Shown: piece after piece, positions 2,632-22,551 of the stretch | Position numbering within the stretch: the first letter of the stretch is position 1 | Layout of the letters: each line of letters opens with the position of its first letter | IMG/VR virus record: IMGVR_UViG_3300025655_000310 | Span: 1-22,974 of that record | DNA: 22,974 bases | Source of the DNA: a virus | Reading direction: 5' to 3' (one strand) | Notes under the pieces: model-generated | The model's input: only the letters and a program-made list of their open reading frames with translations | The model's database searches: none | Told to the model about the DNA's origin: nothing | Translations under genes and position numbers: made by a program

Positions 2632-2662
2632 TATTAACGTGAAAACACATTTTTTTGTTTTT
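2632..2662 (-). promoter_or_regulatory. Candidate phage late (ECF-type) promoter 1, for the 754-aa tail protein
   Basis: On the minus strand AAAAAC (2662-2657) is followed by exactly 17 nt and then CGTTAATA (2639-2632). The ATG at 2625 begins 6 nt further on. The same layout occurs before four other late genes in the window. AAC near -35 and CGT near -10 with a 16-17 bp spacer is the general form of ECF sigma promoters. Confidence 0.7.
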
Positions 2663-2666
2663 ATAC

Positions 2667-2697
2667 TTGCGTAGTATTATAAAATGGTTTATATTTG
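2667..2697 (+). promoter_or_regulatory. Host-type Bacteroidota promoter for the small plus-strand gene at 2734
   Basis: TTG at 2667-2669, 20 nt spacer, then TATATTTG at 2690-2697. This matches the Bacteroidota housekeeping consensus TTG / TAnnTTTG. The predicted leader is an A/C-rich CAAA-type stretch without secondary structure or Shine-Dalgarno site, as is common in this phylum. It lies back to back with late promoter 1. Confidence 0.75.
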
Positions 2698-2733
2698 TAC
2701 CAACAAAGAAACAAACAAACAAAAACAAACATT

Positions 2734-2928
2734 ATGAATACTTTAAAACTAGAATTAATAAAACAAGAGTTAAGCGAAGTAAACTTTCACAAAATTATTG
2801 AAATTGCAACTATGAATTTTTCAAACGCTTGTCACGAAATGGGTTTATCAGTAGAGGATGCCAGAAGAATAATGATAAGCAAAGAGGGTCTGGACGTGAT
2901 AGCAAAAGAAGCGGCTAAATTAATATAA
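2734..2928 (+). CDS. Small antisense accessory (moron-like) protein, 64 aa, unknown function
   Basis: Not recognised. The ATG at 2734 is chosen over an upstream in-frame TTG at 2695 because that TTG lies inside the -7 promoter box. The product is 64 aa, acidic to neutral, predicted mostly helical, with a Cys-His pair around residues 32-33 (NACHEMG) and a charged C-terminus. It is one of three small plus-strand genes that sit alone between minus-strand tail genes, each behind its own host-type promoter. That layout is what is called a moron in lambdoid phages: an accessory gene expressed independently of the lytic programme. Late transcripts from 4503 leftwards would run through it as antisense. 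A role in host fitness, exclusion or regulation is possible but unsupported by homology. Confidence 0.7.
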   Translation: MNTLKLELIKQELSEVNFHKIIEIATMNFSNACHEMGLSVEDARRIMISKEGLDVIAKEAAKLI

Positions 2929-2937
2929 GTAACATCA

Positions 2938-3019
2938 ACCCCTAAAAAGAAAGGAAACCTTTGTTGTCGCAAATGTAGGACGTGTTAATGATTGTATCGC
3001 TAATCCGATTTTAGGGGGT
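2938..3019. other. Structured non-coding segment with long-range 9-bp stem and inner hairpin
   Basis: The 150 nt between the small gene (ends 2928) and the end of the 474-aa gene (3079) contains CCCCTAAAA at 2939-2947, which pairs perfectly with TTTTAGGGG at 3009-3017. Inside lies AAAGG-AAA-CCTTT (2950-2962). A further hairpin ACCTT...AAGGT lies at 3058-3075 and is followed on the plus strand by ATTTTAA. No ORF fits. It could be the 3' end of the plus-strand transcript (terminator or small RNA) or a barrier to late antisense transcription. The pairing is seen; the role is inferred. Confidence 0.45.
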
Positions 3020-3078
3020 ATTAAGTCATAGGGATTAAATTAACATAAGACTGGCTGACCTTGAAAAGCAAAGGTATT

Positions 3079-4503
3079 TTAAACCACTTGCACCAAATCA
3101 CTACTATATTTAAAAGCAATTTCGTAGTTTATTAGCTTGTCAACTATGCGGGTCTTTTTATCCACGCTATTAGTATCGACTTCCATAGGCTCACCGTTTT
3201 CTAAATACACATAGTCGCTTAATAGTAAGTCATCAATAGCTGCGTTTTGCTGCTCGCTAATGTAGCCCGTTGTAAGTTGTAACGACCTACGCGCGTTCGT
3301 GTCCGTATTGCGATATAAATGGCGCGTAGTGTCATAAGTGCCACCGTTAACGTAGTTGTTCTTAAAATTCCCCTCACGAGTTACCTGCAAACTTTCTTTT
3401 TCGGCTTTAAAGAATGTAAGGTTTTCCCATACACCGTACCTATTTAAGAAACGGACTGGTTGTGTTTTATACAAGCACTCATCTATCAACTCAAAAATAT
3501 GTGTTCCGTTTACTTCTACAAAGTCATCGGTAAGCCCCGCAGTAGAAAAACAAACATATTGTATCTGCTTAGTTATATCACCGCTTGCTATTAATGTATA
3601 TAACCCTAAAAAATCGCCAGCTGGATTGGTAAATACTATTGAAGTTGTAACCGCGTTTGTATTTACTGGTACTATTATAAGTTCACCGCGCTTAACTTGG
3701 TGGCGTTGCGAACTCAAAAGAATAAGCTGGCTATATTTAGGCGTTGCACCTTGTTGGTAGGTTGCATAGCCTAGTGTGGTAACCGCTTGATTTAAAATAG
3801 GCTGGTCTATTGCTTCCAGATTGTTACGTACAGATATGCTGCTAGTAATTACAGACCCCGCTACGCTATCAACTATTCCAGCCGTGAACGTTGGAAGTTT
3901 AGGCGTTATAAAGTCGCGTGCGTATTGCGTTATCGCTAGGTCAAAATTCTCCCAGTTTGCACTTGGTCGTAGTTGAGTAGATTGATAATCTGGTGTGCGT
4001 TGCTGGTAGTCGGGGTCTATTAGGTCTGAATTGAACCACATCTTAACCGTTTGACTAACCACGTTGGGGTCTACAATAGGACGCGTTACGTAGTAGTTAG
4101 AACGCGCTGGAATGATACCTTCCGTTCGTGGTATATTTATCGCATCGTTATTTATAACAAAAGTAGCACGGCTTGTGTTCGGTTGCCCTATTACTAAATC
4201 GGTGAATGATATTTCCTGCCTTAGGCTACCTATTGTAACATTGTTGCCTATTATAGATACCTCATATTCCAAAGGGTCGAGGTCTAAATCAAGCGCGTCT
4301 TTATACAATCCAGCTTGCGTAACGTCATCCGTACCAGTTGAAAACTCGCCAAATTGCGTGCGGGTTGCTACTACCCTTTCGACTACAACCGAAAGACCAG
4401 CGTTTTGAATTGAATCAAAAGCATTAATAAAGATTAATGGCGTTGCTGTATTTGGCTCGAAAGCATCTGAGAATTTAATAGTAATTGTTGAGAATACTGG
4501 CAT
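3079..4503 (-). CDS. Virion structural protein, probable tail/baseplate component (474 aa)
   Basis: A 474-aa beta-rich protein with no enzyme motif, signal peptide or membrane segment. The segment around residues 350-385 (FLNRYGVWENLTFFKAEKES) is of a type I recognise from structural proteins of Bacteroidota tailed phages; no closer function can be named. The ATG at 4503 is 4 nt downstream of the CGTTAATA box of late promoter 2, which fixes the start. It is flanked by two plus-strand small genes, so it forms a one-gene late unit that then reads leftwards toward the 754-aa tail protein. Assignment to tail rather than head is from its place after the tail-completion genes. Confidence 0.6.
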   Translation of the reverse strand: MPVFSTITIKFSDAFEPNTATPLIFINAFDSIQNAGLSVVVERVVATRTQFGEFSTGTDDVTQAGLYKDALDLDLDPLEYEVSIIGNNVTIGSLRQEISFTDLVIGQPNTSRATFVINNDAINIPRTEGIIPARSNYYVTRPIVDPNVVSQTVKMWFNSDLIDPDYQQRTPDYQSTQLRPSANWENFDLAITQYARDFITPKLPTFTAGIVDSVAGSVITSSISVRNNLEAIDQPILNQAVTTLGYATYQQGATPKYSQLILLSSQRHQVKRGELIIVPVNTNAVTTSIVFTNPAGDFLGLYTLIASGDITKQIQYVCFSTAGLTDDFVEVNGTHIFELIDECLYKTQPVRFLNRYGVWENLTFFKAEKESLQVTREGNFKNNYVNGGTYDTTRHLYRNTDTNARRSLQLTTGYISEQQNAAIDDLLLSDYVYLENGEPMEVDTNSVDKKTRIVDKLINYEIAFKYSSDLVQVV

Positions 4504-4504
4504 A

Positions 4505-4533
4505 TTGTATTAACGAAAAATGTTGTATATTTG
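4505..4533 (+). promoter_or_regulatory. Host-type promoter for the small plus-strand gene at 4556
   Basis: TTG 4505-4507, 18 nt, TATATTTG 4526-4533. The final G (4533) of the -7 box is the complement of the invariant C of the late promoter 2 -35 box on the other strand, so the two promoters physically overlap. Confidence 0.75.
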
Positions 4534-4538
4534 TTTTT
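4508..4538 (-). promoter_or_regulatory. Candidate phage late (ECF-type) promoter 2, for the 474-aa structural protein
   Basis: Minus strand AAAAAC (4538-4533), exactly 17 nt, CGTTAATA (4515-4508), then 4 nt to the ATG at 4503. The core boxes and spacer match the other four copies. Confidence 0.75.
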
Positions 4539-4555
4539 ATTAAGACGTTTTGAAT

Positions 4556-4759
4556 ATGCAAATAATAGACACGCAACACAATATAGGTGAACTAGTTTTC
4601 CTTATAACCGACCCAGACCAGTACCCGCATTTAGTAACTGGCTACCTTGTTAGGAATGACGGCATAAGGTACGCGCTATCAATGAAAGGAAGCGAAACGT
4701 ATCACTATGACTTTGAAATTATAAGCGAAAAAGATATTATTAAGGCGTTATCTGAGTAA
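4556..4759 (+). CDS. Small antisense accessory (moron-like) protein, 67 aa, unknown function
   Basis: Not recognised. ATG at 4556 is preferred over an in-frame TTG at 4550. The 67-aa product starts MQIIDTQHNIGELVFLITDP and has an alternating beta-strand pattern with a central GYLVRNDGIRY segment. This resembles the size and strand pattern of small SH3-like beta-barrel domains, but I do not claim homology. It has its own Bacteroidota-type promoter 23 nt upstream. Its 3' end overlaps the convergent minus-strand tail-completion gene by 12 nt, so late transcription from 5695 would be antisense to it. Second of three genes of this layout. Confidence 0.7.
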   Translation: MQIIDTQHNIGELVFLITDPDQYPHLVTGYLVRNDGIRYALSMKGSETYHYDFEIISEKDIIKALSE

Positions 4760-5242
4760 CGTCCTATCCAGTTCCAACCCATACGCTTCTATTAACGCAT
4801 CTGGCAAAGCTTTAAAGGCTTTTTCAAATGGACGTGTTATAAAGTTCTTTGGTTTGATACCTTTCCTAAATACGCTATTTGCAACCGCAAAGCCGAAACT
4901 TTCATAGGATGTAAACCGCCCATTTTTACCACGTGGCTTAATTCCCTTTTGCTTTGCCCAGCTTATAAATACGCTTGCTGGTGGCTTCTTACTTTTGTAA
5001 CTAAAAGGGGTTTTAAACTTGCGTTGCGTTCCACTCACCCCTTGATCTTGAAACTTGGAGTATGGCAAAGTAGAGCCGAAACTAAACTGGAATGAATTAG
5101 GGCTTACTTTTAAATCGTAGCCAATAGACTTGTAAAGTTCACCGCTTGCCTTTACCTTTTGTTGTGTAAGGCTACTGCGTGAAGCTTGTACTAATCGCTT
5201 TCCGAATTTGTCTAGTTCTATTTGTACTTCGCTGTTATTCAT
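4748..5242 (-). CDS. Tail completion / HK97 gp10-like neck protein
   Basis: A 164-aa basic protein. The middle contains SFGSTLPYSKFQDQGVSG (residues ~54-71) and the C-terminal half FGFAVANSVFRKGIKPKNFI followed by TRPFEKAF. The pattern 'Y+..QE/DxG...' followed by a C-terminal 'RPF' element is characteristic of HK97 gp10-type head-tail connector or tail completion proteins in siphoviruses, which join the tail to the head. It starts 3 nt after the stop of the upstream 149-aa gene, consistent with one late transcript that begins at late promoter 3. Its end overlaps a plus-strand small gene. The family assignment is from pattern memory, not alignment. Confidence 0.65.
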   Translation of the reverse strand: MNNSEVQIELDKFGKRLVQASRSSLTQQKVKASGELYKSIGYDLKVSPNSFQFSFGSTLPYSKFQDQGVSGTQRKFKTPFSYKSKKPPASVFISWAKQKGIKPRGKNGRFTSYESFGFAVANSVFRKGIKPKNFITRPFEKAFKALPDALIEAYGLELDRTLLR

Positions 5243-5245
5243 AGC

Positions 5246-5695
5246 CTAGCAGAAACGCATCACACTATCCGAAATTTCAACAGTCAAAGTCATAGACCAG
5301 CCGATAAGGTTATTTTCCACGCGTTCCGTTTTCTGTATGTTTGCATCGCCTAGAATAGAAATGCCATCGCTAACGCTTAGCTTGTTATAAACGCGCCTAA
5401 GTACGTAGAGCGTTGTGTTGTAAACGTCCTGCTCGTTATCGTTACCTATAAACTTCTGCCCGTTCTCAATCTCTTTGCTAAAATCTACCTGGTCAAGGCT
5501 AAACAACTCTAAATTAATCTGAATCACGTTATCTAAAAACGTTCCGTCGTTTGCTTCTATATGTGCAAGCGGGTAGATGTCTTTACGGTTTAGGTCGGTG
5601 CTACTCAAGTCCACGCCAGTAGTAACCGTATTGCAATCTACGTCGGCATCCAGCAAACTCTTAATGTAGTCTAGTAATAAATAGTATCCGTTCAT
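5246..5695 (-). CDS. Probable tail terminator/completion protein (149 aa)
   Basis: A 149-aa acidic protein beginning MNGYYLLLDYIKSLLDADVD. It carries a segment PLAHIEANDGTFLDNVIQIN (residues ~42-61), an N-D-N-E-Q-DVYNT element and a C-terminal NNLIGWSMTLTVEIS. Such short alpha/beta proteins with an N-terminal helix and a C-terminal W-x-x-x-x-x-V strand occur beside gp10-like proteins in Bacteroidota phages and are usually taken to be tail terminator or completion proteins (gpU-like). ATG at 5695 lies 4 nt after late promoter 3. The role is inferred from size, place and pattern. Confidence 0.55.
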   Translation of the reverse strand: MNGYYLLLDYIKSLLDADVDCNTVTTGVDLSSTDLNRKDIYPLAHIEANDGTFLDNVIQINLELFSLDQVDFSKEIENGQKFIGNDNEQDVYNTTLYVLRRVYNKLSVSDGISILGDANIQKTERVENNLIGWSMTLTVEISDSVMRFC

Positions 5696-5699
5696 AGTA

Positions 5700-5729
5700 T
5701 ATTAACGTGAAATAGCTTATATTTGTTTT
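5700..5729 (-). promoter_or_regulatory. Candidate phage late (ECF-type) promoter 3, for the tail completion genes
   Basis: Minus strand AAAAC (5729-5725), exactly 17 nt, CGTTAATA (5707-5700), 4 nt, ATG at 5695. G5725 is shared with the -7 box of the opposing plus-strand promoter. Confidence 0.75.
5718..5725 (+). promoter_or_regulatory. Host-type -7 box for the small plus-strand gene at 5742
   Basis: TATATTTG at 5718-5725, 16 nt before the ATG. No clean TTG is found at the expected -33 distance, so the promoter is weaker on paper than those of the other two small plus-strand genes. It overlaps the -35 box of late promoter 3. Confidence 0.6.
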
Positions 5730-5741
5730 AAATTCAATAGC

Positions 5742-5984
5742 ATGATAGTCAAAATTAAAAGCCGCGCGCATAACGATAAAGTTCAAGAGTACTTAATTAA
5801 TAAGGGCTATAACATTCACACCATACCATTTAGGAATGGTGAGTTATATTGCTACACTTATACAGGTAACTTTTACCACCCTTACGACCCGCCAAAAGAA
5901 AGCGAGTTGACCAACTTATTTAATGACGATTTTGAACTAGACTTACAACTTAAAGAACGATTGATTAAGCACTTTAACTCTTAG
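5742..5984 (+). CDS. Small antisense accessory (moron-like) protein, 80 aa, unknown function
   Basis: Not recognised. An 80-aa protein starting MIVKIKSRAHNDKVQEYLIN with a GYNIHTIPF segment and a Tyr-rich middle (LYCYTYTGNFYHPYDPP), ending in an acidic then basic helix. The -7 box TATATTTG lies directly upstream. Its last 11 nt overlap the end of the frameshifted tail chaperone extension on the opposite strand. It is the third copy of the same arrangement: a single plus-strand gene placed between late units, with its promoter overlapping the next late promoter. The three proteins share no visible sequence similarity, so the arrangement rather than the gene is what recurs. Confidence 0.7.
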   Translation: MIVKIKSRAHNDKVQEYLINKGYNIHTIPFRNGELYCYTYTGNFYHPYDPPKESELTNLFNDDFELDLQLKERLIKHFNS

Positions 5985-6668
5985 GCGCGTTCAATTTAGT
6001 AACATCGCTTTGATATGCTAGGAAGTAAAGTATTGCACCTAGTGGCTCTTTTTCAATGCGCTCAAGCTTAAAGTAATCGCCGCCAGCCATAACATTAAAA
6101 GTGTGATACCAGCCCCACTTTAAGCCAAAGCCCTCGACCATATCCGCGTTGGTTTGCTTGCTGCTTACGCTGTAGAGTTCTGGATAAAGTTCGTTAAGTC
6201 GTTGCCTAAATGATAAAAAAAAACCACACTACTCGTATAAGCCGAAAGCGGTGCATCTAGCATTTGAGTAACCCGATCCGCTGCAAATGGCTTAACTGAA
6301 TAGAACACGCCTGCCTTGCGCTTAATAGGTCTGTACATTGCATTAACAAATTCCGCTGCCGTTGTTACGTCCTGTATTGAACTTTCGGCAATAGCAAACG
6401 CGCCACTTTCTATCTGGTCCAAATTAGGTACAAAGCCATACTCCACCCCATTTAGTGTAAACCGCTTTACGTGAGTATCTTGCTCCGATTGTAAAGCCGT
6501 AACTATGCAAACTAAAGCTTCGTCATAAACGGACTGCGGTAACTCTGCAAGCGTTTCTGGTGTAATGTTTAGGTATATTGCCATTTGCTCGCGTTCGGGC
6601 TTCTCTTGCGCTTCTATGTACTGCCTTAACGTTATATCGTTTTGGCTTGTTGGGATTCTTAGTTTCAT
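5974..6668 (-). CDS. Tail assembly chaperone, -1 frameshift fusion product (about 231 aa)
   Basis: If ribosomes slip -1 on the U9 run at 6223-6215, translation leaves the short frame after residue 151 and continues for 80 codons (LSFRQRLNELYPELYSVSSK ... KLNAPKS) to a TAA at 5976-5974. The extension holds a WGWYHTFNVMAGGDY segment and a LGAILYFLAY segment, which look like conserved protein sequence rather than random frame. Siphovirus tail chaperones are commonly made as a short form and a -1 fusion (lambda gpG/gpGT), which bind the tape measure during tail assembly. Without the shift this 190-nt stretch would be the only unexplained space here; with it, the stop packs against the convergent small gene. 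A homopolymer assembly error would look the same. Confidence 0.65.
6165..6668 (-). CDS. Tail assembly chaperone, short form (gpG-like)
   Basis: The 167-aa zero-frame product begins MKLRIPTSQNDITLRQYIEA and includes FTLNGVEYGFVPNLDQIESG (70-89) and MYRPIKRKAGVFYSVKPF (111-128), a pattern seen in small tail chaperone-like proteins of Bacteroidota phages. It would ride with the tape measure during tail assembly. The ATG overlaps the TGA of the upstream 52-aa gene (ATGA), so it is translationally coupled. The last 16 codons after the slippery run are the alternative C-terminus. No catalytic motifs. The chaperone call rests on the frameshift, the small size and the location between terminase and tail completion genes. 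Confidence 0.6.
   Translation of the reverse strand: MKLRIPTSQNDITLRQYIEAQEKPEREQMAIYLNITPETLAELPQSVYDEALVCIVTALQSEQDTHVKRFTLNGVEYGFVPNLDQIESGAFAIAESSIQDVTTAAEFVNAMYRPIKRKAGVFYSVKPFAADRVTQMLDAPLSAYTSSVVFFYHLGNDLTNFIQNSTA
6215..6223 (-). promoter_or_regulatory. Slippery run (U9) for -1 ribosomal frameshifting
   Basis: The message reads GUU UUU UUU UAU in the zero frame, giving a classical U-UUU-UUU heptamer. A shift by -1 here opens an 80-codon extension. I see no strong hairpin directly downstream. Confidence 0.6.
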
Positions 6669-6823
6669 TCGTTAAAGTATTGTTGTGCAAATTTTAAAGC
6701 GTAATCTAGCTTTGCCAAATCCATGCCGTCGTTAAGTTTAATGTTACCGATATCCACGCCTTTAAACTCGTGAATGTATCTCCTAACTAGCATTACCTTT
6801 TGCTCGATGTCAGTCCTAAACAT
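6665..6823 (-). CDS. Small 52-aa protein between terminase and tail chaperone
   Basis: Not recognised. ATG at 6823-6821, TGA at 6667-6665. The product starts MFRTDIEQKVMLVRRYIHEF and ends LDYALKFAQQYFNE; it is charged and probably all-helical. The start overlaps the end of the large terminase gene by 8 nt and the stop overlaps the start of the tail chaperone gene as ATGA. This double coupling strongly supports a real gene despite its size. The location is where small head-tail joining or chaperone accessory proteins are often found, but no function can be named. Confidence 0.7.
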   Translation of the reverse strand: MFRTDIEQKVMLVRRYIHEFKGVDIGNIKLNDGMDLAKLDYALKFAQQYFNE

Positions 6824-8015
6824 AGTACTTTCCTTTATGAGGATTATCTAAATGGTAAGTCACGTTGTACCTAATTCCGTCCAGTAAGTGATTCCAGTCA
6901 TCTATGTACAATTTGCTTGCTCTATCTGAATAGGTGTAGTTATTTAATTCCTTTGCTAAATTACTACTTTCTGGTGAAACAACCAACTTATAGTCTAACA
7001 ACATTTGAACACCGCTCTCGATTGTGCCTTTTTTGACCGCTTGTATATTTGCACCTCTACTTTTTAGGTCGGCAATAAGTCGCGGCTCAGCACTATCTGC
7101 AATGATTAAGCGTTTGTCTGTGATTGCATTTAGTCGCTCACTAAGAACGTTGGTCTGTAAACCTTTCTCATAAATACACTCCCTTAAATATATCACCCTT
7201 TTAGTCTTATCTATTGCTACTTCGGTCAGTGCATCTGGGTCAATACTAAAACCAAAGTCAAGCCCGAAACTAGTCTGTAATCCGTCTGGGTTAAAGTCGC
7301 CAAATTCCCAATTCTGGAATACAACGCCCTCTGCCTTATCTAGCCAGCCCCCCATAATCTTATGTTCAAACTTGCTTAGATTGGTTCGCTTTAAACGCTC
7401 GATGTCCTTAATGTAGCTAGGGCTTAGATTGGTAGAGTTGTCTAGGTATGTCGTATGTATGTAATTCACGTCCTCCTTAGTTCCGTTCCAACCACCCGAA
7501 ACGCCACGCTCCTGGAAGAACCTGCGATATATCCAATGCTCTTTTGTAGTAGGGTTCATCATTAATATAACGCGGTTCTGTACGCCCTTTTGCCTTACCG
7601 ATAAATTGATAGTGTCGAACTTATCTTCGTCCATAAGTTCCTCCGCTTCGTCTAGTACCCACGTGCTTAATCCTGTAATGGATTTTAGGTTTGCCGTCTG
7701 GTCACCGCTAGAGGTTTTGATACCTCTAAATAGAATCCGCGTGCCAGACTTGCGGTTTATAATCTCATCCTTAGTAACGGCAAAATCACCATCACGCCCT
7801 AGTAGTTCTATTTTCTCCAGGAACTCGGGAATGATACTAATCGCGGCAGACCTTAAAGTGTAACGCGTGAAAAGTATAGTATGCCCACGTTCGTAGCTAA
7901 GCAAAAGCGTAAGCAAGGCAACCCCGAAAGATTTGCCCGACCCACGCCCACCTGTTACTATGCTAAATTTACTATCCGTCCCTAGTAGTTCATATTTCGG
8001 GCTAAGTGTTACCAA
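6816..8015 (-). CDS. terL: Terminase large subunit (packaging ATPase and nuclease)
   Basis: A 399-aa protein with the full terminase layout. Walker A GGRGSGKS is at residues 22-29, Walker B with catalytic carboxylate STWVLDEAEEL at 117-127, and the coupling motif MMNPT at 152-156. The RNase H-like nuclease domain shows acidic positions GLDFGFSID (D253), IIADSAEP (D307) and HLLDGIRY (D379). It cuts concatemeric DNA and pumps it into the prohead at the portal. Length is at the short end for TerL but complete. The start overlaps the small terminase gene by 14 nt and the end overlaps the 52-aa gene, so it belongs to the late unit that begins at 8672. Confidence 0.95.
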   Translation of the reverse strand: MVTLSPKYELLGTDSKFSIVTGGRGSGKSFGVALLTLLLSYERGHTILFTRYTLRSAAISIIPEFLEKIELLGRDGDFAVTKDEIINRKSGTRILFRGIKTSSGDQTANLKSITGLSTWVLDEAEELMDEDKFDTINLSVRQKGVQNRVILMMNPTTKEHWIYRRFFQERGVSGGWNGTKEDVNYIHTTYLDNSTNLSPSYIKDIERLKRTNLSKFEHKIMGGWLDKAEGVVFQNWEFGDFNPDGLQTSFGLDFGFSIDPDALTEVAIDKTKRVIYLRECIYEKGLQTNVLSERLNAITDKRLIIADSAEPRLIADLKSRGANIQAVKKGTIESGVQMLLDYKLVVSPESSNLAKELNNYTYSDRASKLYIDDWNHLLDGIRYNVTYHLDNPHKGKYYV

Positions 8016-8283
8016 ACTGAATGAGGTCTTTAAAGTTTATTGCACCACCGTCTGAGGTGATGTCTAGGCTGTCTTTTGGTTTGCCTACATAGTATTCCAA
8101 AAATAGCTTAATCGCTGGTACGTCACCTGTGCTTGCTACCTCTTTTAGCTTTACTATTACGTCCACAACGTCATCAATGGTTGCCGCTTGTTTAAGTGCA
8201 TCCTTATACTCGTTCTTACGTCTGTCTATGCCACCAGTTGCCTTAGTGCTATTGCCTCCGTTATTTCGTCTGTTATCATTCAA
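8002..8283 (-). CDS. terS: Probable terminase small subunit
   Basis: A 93-aa protein: a polar, Asn/Arg-rich N-terminus (MNDNRRNNGGNSTKATGG), a helical middle (DDVVDVIVKLKEVASTGDVP) and AIKLFLEYYVGKP at about 57-69. The last element, 'A-x-K-x-x-x-E...-Y-x-x-GKP', is typical of small terminase-like DNA-recognition proteins that count the number of prior steps in oligomer helices. It directly precedes and overlaps terL, the standard position. No classical helix-turn-helix is obvious, so the call leans on position and this motif. Confidence 0.75.
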   Translation of the reverse strand: MNDNRRNNGGNSTKATGGIDRRKNEYKDALKQAATIDDVVDVIVKLKEVASTGDVPAIKLFLEYYVGKPKDSLDITSDGGAINFKDLIQFGNT

Positions 8284-8303
8284 TGTGTTTGCAATTATTG
8301 ATT

Positions 8304-8672
8304 TTACTTATACTTACTAGCTATACTATCAATTGCCATTATAAGCTGCGACCATGCACTAGCACCGCAAGTCCTGCAAGGTGATACGTTGGTCTGCCTT
8401 ATTGAATTATAGGTGTCCTCTATTAATGTCATATCGTCATCCTTGAGCGTGTTACCGTTCCACTCTTTGCCCCATTGTTCCCAGCTTTGGAATTGCTCTT
8501 GTGTCATTTCGTCTTTAACCGAGTTGTAAGGGATTAGCTTGTTAAGCTTGTTCTGTCGCTTCTTACATGATTCACATGGTTCAATGCCTGCCCATTTAGT
8601 AACCTTTGCGATTGTATCGCCTAGACCCTTAGAGGCTGGCTTGGTTGCTTTCTTTTTCTTAGGTGTTGCCAT
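8304..8672 (-). CDS. Conserved CxxC protein upstream of the terminase genes (122 aa)
   Basis: Function unknown. The N-terminus is Lys-rich (MATPKKKKATKPASKGLGDT). Residues 33-36 form CESC followed by KKRQNKLNKLIPY, and a second pair CRTC occurs at 99-102, so it probably binds a metal ion with four cysteines. The GLGDTIAKVTK...C..CKKRQ..LN pattern is familiar to me from small proteins next to terminase genes of Bacteroidota phages. It is the first gene of the packaging block and its ATG lies 4 nt behind late promoter 4. It might be DNA-binding or a head accessory protein; neither is shown. Confidence 0.65.
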   Translation of the reverse strand: MATPKKKKATKPASKGLGDTIAKVTKWAGIEPCESCKKRQNKLNKLIPYNSVKDEMTQEQFQSWEQWGKEWNGNTLKDDDMTLIEDTYNSIRQTNVSPCRTCGASAWSQLIMAIDSIASKYK

Positions 8673-8676: not shown

Positions 8677-8706
8677 TATTAACGTTAAAGTGTGGTTTTT
8701 TGTTTT
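8677..8706 (-). promoter_or_regulatory. Candidate phage late (ECF-type) promoter 4, for the packaging block
   Basis: Minus strand AAAAC (8706-8702), exactly 17 nt, CGTTAATA (8684-8677), 4 nt, ATG at 8672. It lies directly after the stop codon of the sigma-like gene and its -35 box touches it, so a promoter of the class the sigma may recognise follows the sigma gene itself. Confidence 0.75.
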
Positions 8707-9184
8707 ATATCTCCCCATTTTTTAATTGCTCATAAGCCTGTTTTAAATCCTTGCGCTCGCTTAATTCCTCCTTTGCAGCCTTTACCTTAGACCAAAGTTT
8801 ATACGCGCTGTAACCCATTTTCCGTGCCGAGCTGCGCACCGTGTAATCCATGTTAATCATTACCGCTTTACTCGTGCTAGGGTCACCTAAATCGCTTAGT
8901 GCCTTTTGCATCAAAACCTCTATGCAGTCGCTATCGGTTTCTTCGGTGCTTACATCAATGTAGTCTAGCGTGGTTTGCTTTTTAGTACGTCGTAGTTCGT
9001 CTATAAATAGATTGTGGATAGTTCTGTAAACGTAACGCTTATTCCAGCTAGGAGGGTTGCGCTCGTATATTTTTAAATACATATCCTGCACCAAATCATC
9101 TGCTAGTAAATGACAGCCGCAAATGGTAAAGGCTAGGTTTCGCCAGTAGGTATCTAGTTCGGCTAGTTTTAAAAGCTGCTGCAT
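8705..9184 (-). CDS. ECF-like RNA polymerase sigma factor, candidate late-gene activator
   Basis: A 159-aa protein. Residues ~12-66 resemble sigma region 2: LADDLVQDMYLKIYE (27-41) and then YVYRTIHNLFIDELRR (51-66), which matches the 'YRIARNLxxDxLRR' core that binds RNA polymerase and melts the -10 box. A C-terminal part at ~108-140 (MINMDYTVRSSARKMGYSAY...KAAKEEL) fits a degenerate region 4 helix-turn-helix for the -35 box. Length suits the two-domain ECF class. No anti-sigma factor is seen. It overlaps the VRR-NUC gene by 16 nt, at the end of the DNA metabolism block and immediately before the first late unit of the packaging/tail block. I infer that it directs the AAC-N17-CGTTAATA promoters. 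Confidence 0.8.
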   Translation of the reverse strand: MQQLLKLAELDTYWRNLAFTICGCHLLADDLVQDMYLKIYERNPPSWNKRYVYRTIHNLFIDELRRTKKQTTLDYIDVSTEETDSDCIEVLMQKALSDLGDPSTSKAVMINMDYTVRSSARKMGYSAYKLWSKVKAAKEELSERKDLKQAYEQLKNGEI

Positions 9185-11231: not shown

Positions 11232-11639
11232 TTAAATGTTATCAGTTATATTTTTGATGCAGTATTTGTTCCTTTCATCAAAAGCGCCATTATCAAAAGC
11301 GTGTCTCATGTTTTCTTTGTTAGTCATCCACTCTAAATTAGAAACTTTATTATCTAACTTATCCATGTTTATATGATTTACTGTAGGTTTATTTTCTGGA
11401 TTAGGTATAAATGTTTCCGCTACCAATCTATGAACTGATTTAGTATATTTTTTAGATGCTAACGATAAATAAACACGCTTATAACCTTTTTTATTAAAAC
11501 CAGCTTTTAATATGGTTTGAGAAAAGTTAGCAACCCTACCATCTTTATAAATAGTTTGCGACTTCTTTCTTCTTATTCTTCCTAAATCGCTCGCCTCATA
11601 ATAGCCAGCAAAAGAGGGTATGTCTTTCCATTTTTCCAT
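11232..11639 (-). CDS. HNH homing endonuclease with NUMOD4 domain (free-standing)
   Basis: A 135-aa protein. Residues 1-30 (MEKWKDIPSFAGYYEASDLG, RIRRKKS) are a NUMOD4 DNA-binding motif. Residues 68-115 include SVHRLVAETFIPNPENKPTV then NHINMDKLDNKVSNLEWMT, an HNH_3 catalytic core with H70, N88-H89 and the NLEW signature. It would cut a related, endonuclease-free phage to copy itself. It is clearly richer in A+T than its neighbours and sits between a 23-codon remnant of the helicase start (11748-11677) and the second helicase start (11230). A TATATTTA box lies just upstream of its ATG. Confidence 0.9.
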   Translation of the reverse strand: MEKWKDIPSFAGYYEASDLGRIRRKKSQTIYKDGRVANFSQTILKAGFNKKGYKRVYLSLASKKYTKSVHRLVAETFIPNPENKPTVNHINMDKLDNKVSNLEWMTNKENMRHAFDNGAFDERNKYCIKNITDNI

Positions 11640-16721: not shown

Positions 16722-16744
16722 ATCATTTTTGAATTAGTGATATG

Positions 16745-16774
16745 CAAATATAAACCTATTTATAACTTATGCAA
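16745..16774 (-). promoter_or_regulatory. Host-type promoter of the replication/recombination operon
   Basis: Minus strand TTG (16774-16772), 19 nt, TATATTTG (16752-16745), a full match to the Bacteroidota housekeeping consensus. It stands 23 nt before the ATG at 16721. It is expected to be read by the host polymerase early in infection. Confidence 0.8.
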
Positions 16775-16807
16775 CCCTATGCCTTTACTTTAACATAATT
16801 TTAACAT

Positions 16808-17524: not shown

Positions 17525-17554
17525 TTGTTTGTTTTTTTAGGTAGTTCTTTGTTT

Positions 17555-17584
17555 AAAAAAAGCCTACTCGGTCAAAAGTAGGCT
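17555..17584 (-). terminator. Intrinsic terminator after the lysis genes
   Basis: On the minus strand AGCCTACT (17584-17577), 8-nt loop, AGTAGGCT (17568-17561) and then a run of seven T (17561-17555). It is 38 nt after the end of the spanin gene, so it closes the structural and lysis transcript before the replication block. Confidence 0.9.
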
Positions 17585-17622
17585 CAAAAAACAAAAAACA
17601 AATGAAAGATTAAAGTGCAATA

Positions 17623-18099
17623 CTACGAAATTTTATTTAAAACCGCAAGTATTTGTGAACTTTGTTTACTCATAGCCCAAAAAAACGCGCCAATAGCTAT
17701 GGCAATAAGCAACGCAAGCCCTGCAAATGCGTATAAAATTACCTCACTTTGGAAGCTGGTTTCTTTTGTGCTTTCTTTTTCTTTGCTAGTATCTGAAAGC
17801 GTTCTAATTTCTTCGCGTAGTTCGTTTATTTCCGCGCTTATACATTCTACTGTGGCGTTGCCGTTTGTGTCGTATGCTATGCGCGCTTCGGTACGGTTAA
17901 TGTAGTTCGTTTTAACGATAGTTGTGTCCTTAAATGTAACTTTAGGCACTTGCAAGCGCAAAGTGTCACCAGCGCGCTTAGTTTGCGTTTTGATTGTTTC
18001 GCTGGTTTGTACGTCGCGCTTAGTTTTCTGAGCCGTTTTAAGGCTATCGCACCCAACTAGAACCGCAAGCAGTAAAGCAAGTAGTAAAGCCCTTACCAC
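17623..18099 (-). CDS. Probable unimolecular spanin (lipoprotein with C-terminal membrane segment)
   Basis: A 158-aa protein with an N-terminal lipoprotein signal: MVRALLLALLLAVLVGCDSL, lipobox LVGC with the cysteine at 17. The periplasmic part is charged and contains a probable coiled coil (~88-112, SAEINELREEIRTLSDTSKE). Residues ~119-142 (VILYAFAGLALLIAIAIGAF) form a membrane helix. A lipid anchor at one end and a transmembrane helix at the other is the layout of one-piece spanins (T1 gp11), which fuse inner and outer membranes at the last step of lysis. It overlaps the endolysin gene by 7 nt and follows the holin. No sequence homology is claimed. Confidence 0.75.
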   Translation of the reverse strand: MVRALLLALLLAVLVGCDSLKTAQKTKRDVQTSETIKTQTKRAGDTLRLQVPKVTFKDTTIVKTNYINRTEARIAYDTNGNATVECISAEINELREEIRTLSDTSKEKESTKETSFQSEVILYAFAGLALLIAIAIGAFFWAMSKQSSQILAVLNKIS

Positions 18100-18464
18100 C
18101 TCGCACGTGTTTTACGTATATCGTAATGCACAAACGTAGGATATACACCTATTCCGCCCTGTAACATATCGCCACTTGAAATTAGCGTTTCAATCGCCTT
18201 TGCTACGTCCTTTGGCTTCATTCCAGAAACCACTATGTCTGCTGCCGTTCCTTTTACGTGCTGGCTATTTCTAACACCTCCTATGCGCTTATTATGCGCT
18301 GGCGACCTGTACCCGCTATTTATAGTAATTGAACGCCCTAAAACGTCGCGGAGTGCTTGCAGTTGATTAGCTACCTTTTGGATATTGTGCAATACGTCGG
18401 CTGGCATAGTTGAGCCGTCTTTACTGTCAAACTCCTCACGCGTAAAATTCTTAGTTAGTTTCAT
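18093..18464 (-). CDS. Endolysin: peptidase M15 (zinc D-Ala / peptidoglycan peptidase)
   Basis: A 123-aa single-domain M15A enzyme. NSGYRSPAHNKRIGGVRNSQ with HVKGTAADI (49-77) carries the first two zinc ligands (H69, D76) and FVHYDIR (111-117) the third ligand H113. It cuts peptide cross-links of the cell wall. There is no signal peptide, so it depends on the holin to reach the wall. It starts 3 nt behind the holin stop and overlaps the spanin gene by 7 nt, forming a complete lysis cassette. Confidence 0.9.
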   Translation of the reverse strand: MKLTKNFTREEFDSKDGSTMPADVLHNIQKVANQLQALRDVLGRSITINSGYRSPAHNKRIGGVRNSQHVKGTAADIVVSGMKPKDVAKAIETLISSGDMLQGGIGVYPTFVHYDIRKTRARW

Positions 18465-18467
18465 AGG

Positions 18468-18908
18468 CTACTTCACTATTTCGTTAATATCCTTTTTTAA
18501 ATCTTTGAGCCTGCCCATTAACTTTTTAACGACTGCATAAAAAGAGGGGTTTCCCATTTTTACGCTGGTTTCGTCTATGCTTTTAACTTCTATGTAAATC
18601 CAGAAAATAGTAGTTAGTTTAGCAATTAAAAGGTTCACGCCTAGTATAGTGTTATTGCTTACTACGTGAGTATCTATAAAATAGGCAAAGATTATAGTTC
18701 CAAAATAAAAGAACGTCTTAACAACTACATTAAAAAGCTTTGTACTTTTAAAACTATCCCAGCCCGCTGTTTTTACTGAATAGTACACCGCAAAAATAGT
18801 GTCCATTAAGACTGCAAGTCCAGCGATTAGTAGTAAGCCCTGTATGGGCGCAATAAGTGTTAAAGCGTAGAGTGCTATAAACTTCATAAATGTTAAGATG
18901 TGGTTCAT
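18468..18908 (-). CDS. Holin-like membrane protein
   Basis: A 146-aa protein with about four hydrophobic segments (~6-38, 63-85, 88-110) beginning MNHILTFMKFIALYALTLIA. LIAGLAVLMDTIFAVYYSVK and a Lys-rich C-terminus (KKLMGRLKDLKKDINEIVK) fit the phage holin families with a D-x-x-F/Y...K pattern after the first pair of helices. It would form the timed hole for the endolysin. It is directly upstream of the endolysin and directly downstream of a fibre gene (6 nt). Confidence 0.8.
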   Translation of the reverse strand: MNHILTFMKFIALYALTLIAPIQGLLLIAGLAVLMDTIFAVYYSVKTAGWDSFKSTKLFNVVVKTFFYFGTIIFAYFIDTHVVSNNTILGVNLLIAKLTTIFWIYIEVKSIDETSVKMGNPSFYAVVKKLMGRLKDLKKDINEIVK

Positions 18909-18914
18909 TTTTAA

Positions 18915-19472
18915 TTATACTATTTTTAGCGTTCCCGCGTCGTTCCATACATCGCCAGCACTTAATCCTGTGGCGCTTGTTGGAAGCCCTGTAAAGTTTA
19001 TGCTTGTTGCTTTTATTTTGCCGTTCACATGGAGTTTTTCCGTTGGTGCGGTTGTGCCTATTCCTACGTTGCCGGTTAATTTGTCTATTATAAATCTAGA
19101 AAACCCTGTTGCACTATTAAAATGACTTGCTATTTCAAATTTACCATCTGCAGAGCTAGTGCCAGCTCTCCAAGAGCTTACAGAAAATCCATATAAATCC
19201 ACACTTGATGTAGGAAAAGTTATGGAAGTTCTACCTTCATTATTTATTGTGCTGCTAGTTAATTTTAGGCTTGGATTTGTGAAGTCTACTCCAGAAGTTT
19301 GAGGTTTATTAATTTCCAATTTTCCAGCTGGCGTGGTTGTGCCTATTCCTACATTACCATTTACCGTAGCATTTCCCTCAACTTGCAATTTATTTGTGCC
19401 GTCAACTGGAACTACTCCAATGCCTACGTTATCGTTGGTTAAACTTTGACCTATGTTTGATTTTATTCCCAT
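18915..19472 (-). CDS. Short tail fibre protein with GIGTTTP repeats
   Basis: A 185-aa protein. Three repeat units of the type NVGIG-x-x-P-x-x-KL-x-V occur: NVGIGVVPVDGTNKLQV (~15-31), GNVGIGTTTPAGKLEI (~39-54) and GNVGIGTTAPTEKLHV (~134-149). The C-terminus SINFTGLPTSATGLSAGDVW with NDAGTLKIV is a widespread phage fibre ending. Such repeats form trimeric beta-helix stems. It is separated by 6 nt from both neighbours. It is most likely a fibre or an accessory to the large fibre protein upstream. Confidence 0.8.
   Translation of the reverse strand: MGIKSNIGQSLTNDNVGIGVVPVDGTNKLQVEGNATVNGNVGIGTTTPAGKLEINKPQTSGVDFTNPSLKLTSSTINNEGRTSITFPTSSVDLYGFSVSSWRAGTSSADGKFEIASHFNSATGFSRFIIDKLTGNVGIGTTAPTEKLHVNGKIKATSINFTGLPTSATGLSAGDVWNDAGTLKIV
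19050..19352. repeat. Repeat in fibre gene: 18-bp identical copies of the GIGT unit
   Basis: GGTTGTGCCTATTCCTAC occurs at 19050-19067 and at 19335-19352, encoding the two best GNVGIGTT units on the minus strand. These repeats could allow recombination that changes stem length or swaps tips. Confidence 0.6.
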
Positions 19473-19478
19473 GTTGTT

Positions 19479-19763
19479 TTAATTAAAGCCTGCAAAGCTG
19501 TGTTTTGGACTCGTTACTTGTATCTCACTTTCAAAGACTATCTCATCGCTAGTCATTACGTCGTAGTGGTAGCCGTCTGCATAAATAGCTGGAGTAATTT
19601 CATTGCCTTGCTCGTCGTAAGTCGCATCTGTTTGAACTATTTTGCCAATGTCTACCACTGCTTGCGTTGCGTTGGTGTAACCCTGCTCATCAATAACACC
19701 CTTATCTATTAAATCAGCGATTGCAGTTTCTTTGTCTGTATAAACTAGTTTGTATATGTTCAT
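19479..19763 (-). CDS. Small virion-associated protein, 94 aa, unknown function
   Basis: Not firmly recognised. Starts MNIYKLVYTDKETAIADLID and contains GYHYDVMTSDEI (~64-75). A short acidic protein between two fibre genes, transcribed with them (1 nt gap upstream, 6 nt downstream). Proteins of this size and start (MxIYKLVYxD) are common near the tail fibres of Bacteroidota phages. It may be a fibre chaperone or a decoration protein. No membrane segment. Confidence 0.6.
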   Translation of the reverse strand: MNIYKLVYTDKETAIADLIDKGVIDEQGYTNATQAVVDIGKIVQTDATYDEQGNEITPAIYADGYHYDVMTSDEIVFESEIQVTSPKHSFAGFN

Positions 19764-19764
19764 A

Positions 19765-21408
19765 TTATAGTGTTGTTAAGGCTGCTAGTTCGGTGTCTGT
19801 TAAGGCTGTTTTGTAGAGTTGAAAACTTTTAACATTTCCATCAAATTTATTATTTCCGTTTCTATCTGAAAAATTTATTATGCTCATGAAATTTTCCGCT
19901 GGAGGTATGCCTAGTGTATCTTCAGAAACCTTACTACCGTTAACCCAAATTTCAAACCTATTTAATGCCCAGACAAAAGCCATTTTATTATATTCTGACT
20001 GGCTAGTTAAATCAAAATTAATGTTGCATTGAAGTGCTGAATTTGAATAAACAGAATACGCTATCCTATTTGAAAAACCCTCATACCTAATAAATATATT
20101 GTTTGTAAGGCTGACCGTGTTTCCTCTTAATTCTATAAACCTTGCAGATGTGTTATTAGCTAGAGCGGCTGAATTTAAAAATATAGTACCCTCTTGACCA
20201 TTTATCAAATCACTAATCCCAGTCTTACTAATCACATCAGCATTTCTAGTTACCGTACTTGCAACCGTTGGAATGTATGAAGTAGCGTTTGAGCCTTGTT
20301 CTACTTGTGCGCCGTATATGTAATTAAATGAACCTGACAAAGTATTTACATCAGTTGCAGAATCTGCATTATAAATTCTAAAATTAAAAGATGTGCTTAT
20401 TGTTGGAGTAAATGTGATAGAACACCTCCACCAACCGTCACCATAATTTTCAATTTTGGATATTGTTGTTATATTTGAAGAAATTGTAGAACCTAAAGCC
20501 CCATTTAAAATATCAAAAGTTGAAGCCGCTATATTAGTAGAGCCAATTGCAAGTAAGTAACACCAATCCATTATCCCTTTTTTTACAAAAAAAGAATATG
20601 TATAAGGCACACCAGAAGTTAATGAGATGTTTTGGGATATATATCGCGCTCCATTAGAAAAATTTTCTAATTTATCAGCGTTTAACGTGCCATCTGGCGA
20701 AGTAATTTGATTAGGAGTTATGGTTATGCTAGTTTTGGACCAACTCGCATTATCAAACTCCTCACTCCTTAACAACAAATTAGTCCTTTGCGGCTCAACT
20801 AAAATACTACCAGCTCCGTCTTTATAATCAACTCTAGGCACGTTTGCGGCAACGCTTTCAATAAGTCCGTCCTCGTTTACCCTTGTGGCGGTTGTAGCTC
20901 TTACAACGGTTAAATCACCCGCTGCATTTTGTGGCTTAATCGCGTAAAGTTTAGATGCTTTGGTTGCGCTAGGCGTTACTATTAAAGATGCCTTTTGCAG
21001 CAAGTCATTTTGCTTTAAATTTGCTAACTCAAAAGCCGACGTGCTAGGGTGCGAAGTGCCTAAATCGTTTAAAATTCTTGTTCTAAAATTGTCTAGGTAA
21101 GATTGCCCGTAAGCGAGGTTTTCGTTTTGTATTAAAAAAGAAGTGCTATCCACACTACCGTCCGCTTTAAGAAACTCCGACGAAGTTCCACCTGCTTTAA
21201 TAAATGCTTCCGCTTGCAAAGTACTTTCAACTATCTGGTCAGTAGCACCTGTTTTTTGCACGGAATTAGCAACGGTTGCAAATAAGTCAACATCCAACCT
21301 TTTTGGTTCGGTTGCACCACCTGTTTGCACCAATAATTTACCACCAGCGGGAACGCTTCCTGTTTCCGTTTTCTCGTTAAAATAATCTCTGAATAATTTA
21401 TCTGCCAT
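19765..21408 (-). CDS. Large tail fibre / receptor-binding protein with concanavalin-like C-terminus
   Basis: A 547-aa protein. The N-terminal ~130 residues (MADKLFRDYFNEKTETGSVP, ...GTSSEFLKADGSVDSTSFL) look like a fibre stem; SSEFLKADGS is a recurring phage fibre motif. A middle domain (~205-390, VEPQRTNLLLRSEEFDNASW...FNYIYGAQVEQGSNATSYIP) is a carbohydrate-binding-like jelly roll. The C-terminal ~150 residues (EGTIFLNSAAL...RFEIWVNGSK...VKSFQLYKTALTDTELAALT) fit a LamG/concanavalin-like lectin fold. It would bind a host surface sugar. It starts at a TAATG junction with the upstream gene (1-nt overlap). Confidence 0.8.
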   Translation of the reverse strand: MADKLFRDYFNEKTETGSVPAGGKLLVQTGGATEPKRLDVDLFATVANSVQKTGATDQIVESTLQAEAFIKAGGTSSEFLKADGSVDSTSFLIQNENLAYGQSYLDNFRTRILNDLGTSHPSTSAFELANLKQNDLLQKASLIVTPSATKASKLYAIKPQNAAGDLTVVRATTATRVNEDGLIESVAANVPRVDYKDGAGSILVEPQRTNLLLRSEEFDNASWSKTSITITPNQITSPDGTLNADKLENFSNGARYISQNISLTSGVPYTYSFFVKKGIMDWCYLLAIGSTNIAASTFDILNGALGSTISSNITTISKIENYGDGWWRCSITFTPTISTSFNFRIYNADSATDVNTLSGSFNYIYGAQVEQGSNATSYIPTVASTVTRNADVISKTGISDLINGQEGTIFLNSAALANNTSARFIELRGNTVSLTNNIFIRYEGFSNRIAYSVYSNSALQCNINFDLTSQSEYNKMAFVWALNRFEIWVNGSKVSEDTLGIPPAENFMSIINFSDRNGNNKFDGNVKSFQLYKTALTDTELAALTTL

Positions 21409-21974
21409 TATGCGTATGTTAATCTGTTTCCAGTCCCGTCTGTTAGTATTTCTAGTAGTTCGCTTAGTAAATAGTTGTTTTCGGTTGCTATGCTAAAACC
21501 AGCTGCCACTAAATCTGTGAAAAGTAACGACTTGTAGCGCTCATTTGCTTCTATGCTAATGGTATACCCGTTTAGGTCATTTTTTGCGCCACCCGTTGCT
21601 GCCGTTGCACTTTCAATTCTACATCCATTTTCAGCACCTACGAGCCTAAATAAGCCATCCCACCCCTCAATAATAAGCCCTAGTTCAATACCTATAAGCG
21701 TTTCTATTTCTATGGTGTCCGATAGCGTTTGCTTTGTCAAAGTCGCGCTAAATGACTGCGACCAATCGCCTAAATCCTGCGCGCGGTTCTCGCTAAAACT
21801 AGACGCTTGCACATTGTAAGCATAAACCAAAGTAGGTGGATAGCTTGTAAGGGAAACGCCCCTTTGCCCTCGTGCCTGCCTTGCTACTTCCTGTGAGTAC
21901 TTGAAAATATACACCCTTTTAACGCCACCTAAACCATCTTTACATGGCTCAGTCCTACCTCGAAATATCCTCAT
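21408..21974 (-). CDS. Conserved virion protein, possible tail component (188 aa)
   Basis: A 188-aa protein beginning MRIFRGRTEPCKDGLGGVKR. A middle region with GLFRLVGAENGCRIESATAA (~110-130) and NDLNGYTISIEANERYKSLL is beta-rich. The pattern 'PC-x-x-GLGGVK-x-VY-x-F' at the start and 'NG-Y-x-I-x-x-E' near the end is one I associate with small virion proteins of Bacteroidota phages. It overlaps the upstream connector gene by 20 nt and meets the fibre gene at TAATG. Head-tail joining or tail tube are both possible; I cannot separate them. Confidence 0.55.
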   Translation of the reverse strand: MRIFRGRTEPCKDGLGGVKRVYIFKYSQEVARQARGQRGVSLTSYPPTLVYAYNVQASSFSENRAQDLGDWSQSFSATLTKQTLSDTIEIETLIGIELGLIIEGWDGLFRLVGAENGCRIESATAATGGAKNDLNGYTISIEANERYKSLLFTDLVAAGFSIATENNYLLSELLEILTDGTGNRLTYA

Positions 21975-22515
21975 GATACCACTTTTTTACCATGCGACCA
22001 GGCAAGTAAAAACCGCCTACTATATTAACATCCCTATTCGGGTGCTGGTCAAAGTCATTCGGCTGGTCGTCTTGATATTCTGGAATTTGCACCCCTACAT
22101 CACATAGCCACTTTTGCAACCTACCTACCCAAACATCTGCCTTAGCTTTGTAGTTATTTGCAAAAAATCTCACTTCGTCAATAGGCGCGCTTTCGCTATT
22201 TGTTGGTAACGCTTTATAAATGCCACTATCCTGTACGTTATACTGACCCGTAAGCACGTACTCGCTAAATACGGCATTGTATAAAATAGGCTTTAAATAA
22301 TTTTCGTGTACTGTTTCATATAAGCCAGTAAGCGGGGTTTGGCTTAGGATGTCCGCTGCAATTTTCTCATATAGTGCCGTGCCTATTATATCCTCAATTA
22401 GATACCTTTGCTGCTCATATATAATGTATATGTAGCGGTCGGTATCTACATTGCCACCAATAGGCGTAAATTTTACGATTTCGGCTGGAGTTATGAAAAG
22501 TGCTTGTTGATTCAT
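21955..22515 (-). CDS. Probable head-tail connector / neck protein (DUF6712-like)
   Basis: A 186-aa protein that opens MNQQALFITPAEIVKFTPIG, GNVDTDRYIYIIYEQQRYLI and DIIGTALYEKI. The 'I-x-x-x-E-I-x-x-x-T-x-I-G-G-N-V-D...I-x-x-x-LG-x-x-LY' pattern is that of small helical connector proteins found next to capsid genes in Bacteroidota phages, analogous to gp6-type head completion proteins. The ATG at 22515 is 7 nt behind the CGTTAATA box of late promoter 5. It overlaps the next gene by 20 nt. The DUF name is from memory and not checked. Confidence 0.65.
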   Translation of the reverse strand: MNQQALFITPAEIVKFTPIGGNVDTDRYIYIIYEQQRYLIEDIIGTALYEKIAADILSQTPLTGLYETVHENYLKPILYNAVFSEYVLTGQYNVQDSGIYKALPTNSESAPIDEVRFFANNYKAKADVWVGRLQKWLCDVGVQIPEYQDDQPNDFDQHPNRDVNIVGGFYLPGRMVKKWYHEDISR

Positions 22516-22522
22516 GTTATAT

Positions 22523-22551
22523 TATTAACGCATTTTGCGTTGTTTTTGTTA
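22523..22551 (-). promoter_or_regulatory. Candidate phage late (ECF-type) promoter 5, for the virion/lysis block
   Basis: Minus strand TAAC (22551-22548), exactly 17 nt, CGTTAATA (22530-22523), 7 nt, ATG at 22515. The -35 box is slightly weaker (ATAAC not AAAAC) and a second AAAAAC lies 6 nt closer. The -10 box is embedded in a hairpin, AACGCA-TTT-TGCGTT (22527-22541). Confidence 0.65.

Follow-up and report, generated by a model that had tools for sequence, protein, structure and literature searches.

A putative phage-encoded ECF-type sigma factor and its candidate late promoters in Bacteroidota phages

The IMG/VR virus record IMGVR_UViG_3300025655_000310, analysed here as a whole (22,974 bases; referred to below as the window), contains five copies of a bipartite site, AAC-N17-CGTTAATA, each placed a few nucleotides before a start codon. 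These sites are very probably the promoters of a phage-encoded sigma factor of the extracytoplasmic function (ECF) type that would switch on the late transcription units of the phage. The case is built from sequence comparison, i.e., from sites whose spacing is fixed and which are conserved in front of orthologous genes, from the homology of the sigma factor, and from the co-occurrence of sigma factor and site layout in distant phages. A preliminary description of this DNA had reported the five sites, and it contained neither the sigma gene (8705-9184, minus strand) nor the leaderless mRNAs that are predicted by the placement of the sites.

Bipartite sites in the window and in its close relatives

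All five exact matches to AAC-N17-CGTTAATA lie on the minus strand, and the ATG that follows each of them opens a long open reading frame (ORF). Shuffled versions of the window contained 0.06 matches on average and none of 100 shuffles reached five, which confirms the five copies with invariant spacer put forward in the preliminary description. The spacer is 17 nt in every case, and its bases vary from site to site, save for a common AACAAA start. The sites are listed here with the distance from the end of CGTTAATA to the ATG.

2632-2659 (-), candidate late promoter 1, AAC (-35), N17, CGTTAATA (-10); 6 nt before ATG 2625
4508-4535 (-), candidate late promoter 2; 4 nt before ATG 4503
5700-5727 (-), candidate late promoter 3; 4 nt before ATG 5695
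8677-8704 (-), candidate late promoter 4; 4 nt before ATG 8672
22523-22550 (-), candidate late promoter 5; 7 nt before ATG 22515, lowest matrix score of the five (25.2)

The window contains 15 CGTTANTA boxes. All five that have an AAC at N17 are followed by an ATG-started ORF 3-8 nt on, as opposed to one of the ten without AAC. If two mismatches were allowed, 19 matches were found versus 15.06 expected; this is the chance level, so that the signal consists of the five strong sites, and no sixth site was detected in the window.

The only named relatives found were the Nonlabens phages P12024S and P12024L, which were fetched by protein similarity without use of the motif and which are so close to each other that they do not count as independent. 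When these relatives were scanned with a position weight matrix at orthologous genes, a check proposed in the preliminary description, each proved to possess seven sites before late-type units, namely before genes 1, 5, 8, 35, 41, 44 and 45 (P12024S numbering). Gene 1 encodes the head protease and is followed by a gene with a weak capsid match (gene 2); the portal gene (gene 6) comes directly after the site-bearing gene 5; gene 8 encodes a DUF6712 protein and gene 10 a tail protein; gene 35 opens the terminase unit, in which gene 37 encodes the terminase large subunit (TerL). Probable tail units are among the site-bearing units as well. Five of these seven unit starts are present in the window and the site is kept at all five, the orthologs behind the sites being 52-76% identical at the protein level. 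This distribution supports the late-promoter, ECF-type reading, to the extent that sequence can. Furthermore, the conservation before orthologs, together with spacers and flanks that differ at each site, bears out the view that the five copies are not a duplicated block.

The pairing with AAC separates the boxes of the relatives in the same way. In P12024S and P12024L, an ORF starting with ATG follows after 3-8 nt at 12 of the 13 CGTTANTA boxes that are paired with AAC at N16-18, in contrast to 1 of the 22 boxes lacking AAC (Fisher test, 2e-7). In 19 Inhavirus-type sequences, a box stands near an ATG in 53/55 cases with AAC and in 5/76 cases without it, a comparison that is partly circular because 11 of the 19 sequences were fetched by a pattern including the ATG.

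The sites of the relatives together give the consensus TAAAACAAA-N14-CGTTAnTA-N4-ATG, in which CGTT is immediately preceded by a T-rich stretch and the sixth base of CGTTAnTA is variable. Among 38 distinct site sequences, the spacer is N17 in 37 and N16 in one. The distance to the ATG is 4 nt in 31 of them, 7 nt in three, 6 nt in two and 14 nt in one, and one has no ATG. The 14-nt case is a strong late site (L082, position 153) that is an exception to the 4-nt rule.

With a matrix trained on ten sites, the untrained L035/L036 sites scored 29-31 bits, as compared with 80 simulated strands in which no score exceeded 17.4. The site before gene 1 scored 16.2 in P12024S, which is within the simulated range, and 21.4 in P12024L; one L007 site with both core boxes reached only 13.1. 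De novo dyads were strong in G001, P12024S, L079 and the window, and in distant contigs they were mostly no better than in shuffled controls. Of the 24 stretches retrieved by a strict DNA scan of viral contigs, 17 are relatives with sites before the same genes (in L067 and L082 the site apparently precedes the portal gene itself). The other seven stretches (L071, L074, L075, L081, L084, L087, L088) are chance-like and not relatives; the listed matches of a looser scan were mostly chance-like too and were left out of the counts.

The putative sigma factor and its distribution

8705-9184 (-), ECF-type sigma gene, 159 residues, likely reader of the five sites; Pfam PF04542, TIGR02937 and SigW profile matches

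The start of this gene overlaps the end of a VRR-NUC-like nuclease gene, and its stop codon immediately precedes the AAC of the site at 8677-8704. The sigma gene is thus the last one of the replication block and borders directly on the candidate packaging promoter. Region 2 of the protein matches PF04542 with 34.8 bits (cut-off 24), and the ECF model TIGR02937 aligns over residues 15-143 with 32.3 bits, under the cut-off of 42.9. In the family of 23 aligned sigmas, TIGR02937 is matched by all 23, PF04542 (region 2) by 14 (both at E <= 0.01) and Sigma70_r4_2 by two. A profile of the 23 relatives, which spans both domains of SigW, found in the PDB Bacillus subtilis SigW (5wuq, E 6.8e-9), Bartonella RpoE (8.5e-9), SigR (8.2e-8) and SigL (1.3e-6). 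The size and the two-region build of the protein agree with those of ECF sigma factors (regions 2 and 4 only, ~160-190 residues); the rigid spacing of bipartite promoters that goes with this group is found by association, in the N17 of nearly all distinct site sequences.

An AlphaFold model (mean predicted local distance difference test score, pLDDT, 80; predicted template modelling score, pTM, 0.42) predicts nine helices in two blocks flanking a low-confidence linker at residues 70-82, with a helical C-terminal part. In Foldseek the model was best matched by ECF sigmas, the top one at E 7.9e-5; region 2 taken by itself superposes on SigR with 1.9 A over 59 columns (E 0.89). The sigma of the named relatives P12024S and P12024L is 66-68% identical (67-68% for P12024S_33) and is annotated there as a hypothetical protein containing Sigma-70 region 2. 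The family is present in a large set of phage loci (L009-L033 and L037-L061) with hardly any named members, and the named-phage collection gave P12024S and P12024L only; when three distant sigmas were searched in named phages, only P12024S was matched, by one of the three.

In the mechanism that we propose, transcription would begin with the early and replication genes, carried out by host RNA polymerase with sigma-A. The phage sigma factor, encoded at the end of this block, would then bind the host core RNA polymerase, with region 4 reading the -35 element TAAAACAAA (core AAC) and region 2 reading the -10 element CGTTAnTA (core GTT). The packaging, head and tail units would then be switched on, starting from the promoter that abuts the sigma gene. 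It would thus be the phage sigma and not a host sigma that reads the sites, and the units behind them would be late in time.

Distant phages were collected by protein alone as 52 loci (706 kb, many of them fragments), 25 by the sigma factor and 27 by TerL. In these loci AACA-N14-16-CGTTA, where it occurs within 24 nt of the ATG of an ORF, sits 7 nt before the ATG in 8 of 9 cases, with at most one for permuted 5-mers in the same test; five of the eight belong to one ortholog, so there are about four independent sites. After clustering of the loci, GTT at -11 was found in 11/155 cases with AACA at -33 to -29 versus 52/3226 (Fisher test, 1e-4, not an independent value because the loci had been inspected beforehand), and among the offsets from -16 to -5 GTT was enriched at none other than -11. 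The layout is kept in 21 of the 52 loci, each with one or more sites that have GTT or GTA at -11, a count that sets aside two doubtful matches, one in L059 and one in L011/L012. Enrichment of a single box near ATGs in the distant phages was weak, and the AACAA offset profile over all ATGs had no clear single peak; the test is therefore one conditioned on the box.

Eight phage groups, each with its own sigma, show variants of the -10 element (CGTTA; GGTTTA in the L040 group; CGTTTA/CGTTAA in L058-L060; CGTAT in L037; AGTTA in L010). The L037 record (G009) has two AAC-N-CGTAT sites on its minus strand, near 9096 and 5271, behind which ATG-TAA stands at almost the usual distance and the next ORF starts 49 and 38 nt past the box; these could be start-stop leaders.

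A profile of the sigma family, the seed of which includes eight of the 52 loci, found a member in 45 of them. As 25 loci carry a sigma by the route of fetching, the actual test is the 20 positive loci among the 27 fetched by TerL. Pfam region 2 was recognized in 16 of 20 chosen distant records at E <= 0.001, with four above the cut-off. Six unrelated Bacteroidota phages (475 kb as whole records) served as controls and contained neither AAC-N16/17-CGTTANTA-N3-8-ATG nor a sigma match, and the same pattern and profile do find P12024S as a positive control. In 244 kb of the controls, made up of two almost complete records and the initial 40 kb of the other four, there were six AAC-N16/17-CGTTANTA matches, none of them before an ATG. 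Among the matches listed in a scan of host and prophage genomes, there was one relative in a Bacteroidetes metagenome-assembled genome (MAG) and nine others, none of which is titled Bacteroidota.

Register of the sites and competing explanations

According to passages of PMC6411747, the -10 element GTT has its T-9 flipped in the open complex of sigma-H, and a spacer of 17 bp is optimal; from this we assign GTT to positions -11 to -9. Counted from the ATG, the sites described here have G-11, T-10 and T-9, and AACA ends at -29, i.e., they have the register and the spacer of sigma-H. This shared register would place +1 on the A of the AUG. For the phages 7-11 and phiEco32, the transcription start sites are given as 6-9 bp from the promoter sequence (PMC8948821, in part; one sentence there has them 'upstream', presumably a slip), which would allow +1 at about -2 to +2. 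By analogy, the late mRNAs are likely to be leaderless or nearly so, and +1 probably coincides with the A of the AUG or lies at most about 3 nt away.

Transcription from phage-sigma promoters could also yield short leaders or start inside the gene. We consider this clearly less probable, and yet it is the most serious competitor as far as the leaderless prediction is concerned: start sites do vary in 7-11 and phiEco32 over the range just mentioned (PMC8948821, in part), and five of the 38 site sequences are 6-7 nt from the ATG and one is 14 nt from it. The prevailing 4-nt distance (31/38) and the same register in the distant groups fit initiation coupled to the start codon, and the sigma-H register inferred from parts of PMC6411747 would put +1 on the A of the ATG. 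The nearly fixed distance to the start codon might instead mean that CGTTAnTA is a translation-start signal and the AAC incidental. This is very improbable, as boxes of P12024S/L without AAC are almost never near an ATG (1/22, versus 12/13 with AAC), the spacing between the boxes is as rigid as that to the ATG, and the coupled second gene of unit 3 has no box either in the window or in P12024. Chance or duplication, to which the chance-level result of the two-mismatch pattern might point, has a practically negligible probability and is already refuted by the conservation before orthologs; the expectation of 0.06 and the differing spacers and flanks speak against it as well.

Several observations weigh against a phage sigma factor as the reader. 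The Pfam search with the window protein gave region 2 only, region 4 being degenerate; its TIGR02937 score is under the cut-off, the domain placement in its model has low confidence (pTM 0.42), and the whole-chain TM-score to ECF sigmas is only 0.3-0.4. Sites of the present form are missing from 31/52 distant loci, many of which are fragments. No sigma was matched in seven of the 27 loci fetched by TerL; five of them have too little upstream DNA, and L041 (2,184 nt) and L044 (1,514 nt), likewise without a match, are inside the span of 1.4-2.9 kb found in other loci. A sigma is present, and no convincing site in the DNA scanned, in group D (L011/L012), L052 and L054, group M has a -10 box and an unclear -35, and the Bacteroidetes MAG contig L221, with a sigma relative of 32% identity, has no site in 19.9 kb. 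Moreover, 2/38 site sequences have no ATG within 8 nt. The sites could be read by an ECF sigma factor of the host, or by the host RNA polymerase together with an activator from the phage, with the sigma-like protein of the phage acting otherwise; the layout is indeed that of ECF promoters in general, region 4 is degenerate, and some phages have a sigma without a site. We regard this as unlikely: the complete genomes of P12024S and P12024L carry both the sigma and the sites, the sigma family is present in most of the TerL-fetched distant loci, the six unrelated Bacteroidota phages have neither sites nor sigma, and the sigma gene abuts one of the sites. Besides, phage 7-11 is an established case of a phage sigma of this type that has a bipartite promoter of its own (PMC8948821, in part). 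Recognition by the phage-encoded ECF-type sigma factor is accordingly the reading that we follow below.

Known systems, overlapping host-type promoters and genes behind the sites

Phage ECF-type sigma factors with their own late promoters are already known, and in Salmonella phage 7-11 these promoters are bipartite. There the sigma SaPh711_gp47 redirects host RNA polymerase to mapped late promoters, GTAAtg-(16)-aCTA (PMC8948821, in part), a situation similar to the one read here from sequence. The consensus, the host phylum and the genome size differ from those of the present phages. The 7-11 sigma is matched by profile A2 of the present sigma family (E 5.5e-7) as well as by TIGR02937. The word 'leaderless' is absent from the text of PMC8948821, and its available passages disagree on whether 7-11 possesses a sigma-70 inhibitor of the phi32_gp79 type. 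Escherichia phage phiEco32 likewise encodes a sigma (gp36) for middle and late promoters, tAATGTAtA; unlike the sites described here, these are single-element promoters without a -35 (excerpts of PMC4281155 and PMC8948821). The phiEco32 genome is matched by TIGR02937 (E 1.9e-6) and contains no match to profile A2, so that only the superfamily model is shared.

The -10 element of SigW is CGTA. SigW of B. subtilis, the best PDB sequence match, has the -35 element TGAAAC as compared with TAAAAC here, and unlike the phage protein it is a chromosomal stress sigma held by the anti-sigma factor RsiW (PMC6713349, in part). TA-led leaderless genes resemble the phage units in that a -10 element ~10-12 bp before the start codon was read as indicating a leaderless mRNA, and differ in being host genes with sigma-70-type boxes; Bacteroidetes are listed among the clades with many 'atypical' genes (both from parts of PMC3160421). 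In PMC8776804, the words 'sigma' and 'promoter' are both absent. In the open-licence literature we came across no description of a comparable system for Bacteroidota phages, nor of the leaderless placement. As far as this literature was searched, the Bacteroidota clade, the consensus, the start-codon-coupled placement and the overlap with divergent host-type promoters are new.

This overlap was found as follows. The host-type promoter pattern TTG-N18-22-TAnnTTTG occurs ten times in the window versus 4.2 expected and 17 times in P12024S (two of these overlap) versus 6.7 expected, in both cases with many matches inside genes. In a redundant list of 45 late sites, an opposite-strand TATATTTG overlaps the site in 12 and abuts it in two more, and 13 of these 14 sites, in comparison with 13 of the 31 others, are followed by a divergent ORF. 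A late -35 region bears a divergent TATATTTG -7 box in the window (4508-4535 (-) and 5700-5727) and in L065 (5379 and 23929). One such case is covered by the following feature:

4505-4533 (+), host-type promoter match TTG-N18-TATATTTG; covers most of candidate late promoter 2 and precedes the small ORF 4550-4759 (+)

Mutual occlusion with the promoter of the small divergent gene would make such an overlap an early/late switch. The small plus-strand ORFs 2695-2928, 4550-4759 and 5742-5984 are wedged between the late units and run opposite to their neighbours; genes 4, 7, 40 and 43 of P12024S are small opposite-strand genes at similar places.

The hosts of this virus family appear to be marine bacteria of the Flavobacteria type. 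Two members, P12024S and P12024L, are cultured, on Persicivirga sp. IMCC12024. Bacteroidota make little use of Shine-Dalgarno sequences. If the late mRNAs are leaderless, the switch to the phage sigma would be tied to a switch in translation initiation in Bacteroidota: promoters in register with the AUG would let a single step change both the promoters seen by RNA polymerase and ribosome loading. At several loci, where the late -35 shares bases with the divergent early -7 box, turning on the late unit would occlude the early gene opposite. That a whole clade of mostly uncultured Bacteroidota phages runs its late programme on leaderless mRNAs, with the overlapping late -35 occluding early genes opposite, is a tentative suggestion that we hold to be somewhat less than an even chance. 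The sigma, the consensus and the two cultured members provide a testable account of late transcription in poorly known marine Bacteroidota phages. Furthermore, the -10 variants of the eight groups form a natural set with which the specificity of the sigmas could be mapped, and they could serve as a source of orthogonal expression parts for Bacteroidota.

The genes behind the five sites in the window are as follows.

8304-8672 (-), first gene of the packaging unit, ortholog of P12024S_35, function unassigned
8002-8283 (-), putative small terminase, from its position before TerL; no Pfam match
6816-8015 (-), terminase large subunit; Pfam Terminase_3, 1e-34
5246-5695 (-), first gene of unit 3, ortholog of P12024S_41, function unassigned
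4748-5242 (-), second gene of unit 3; weak match to tail completion/Neck1 PHROG 5, E 0.0034
3079-4503 (-), unit 2 gene, ortholog of P12024S_44, function unassigned
361-2625 (-), unit 1 gene, possible tail gene, ortholog of P12024S_45 (sub-threshold BACON match in P12024S_45)
21955-22515 (-), DUF6712 protein, first gene of unit 5, ortholog of P12024S_08; Pfam PF20459, 3.1e-21

According to the preliminary description, all five units carry head, packaging or tail genes. This is firm for the unit starting at 8672, which includes TerL, and reasonable for that at 22515 (DUF6712, adjoining the portal gene); for the other three the assignment comes from position and weak matches. Apart from these units, an ORF between the helicase and primase genes (11232-11639, minus strand) resembles, by eye, a homing endonuclease of the NUMOD4-HNH type.

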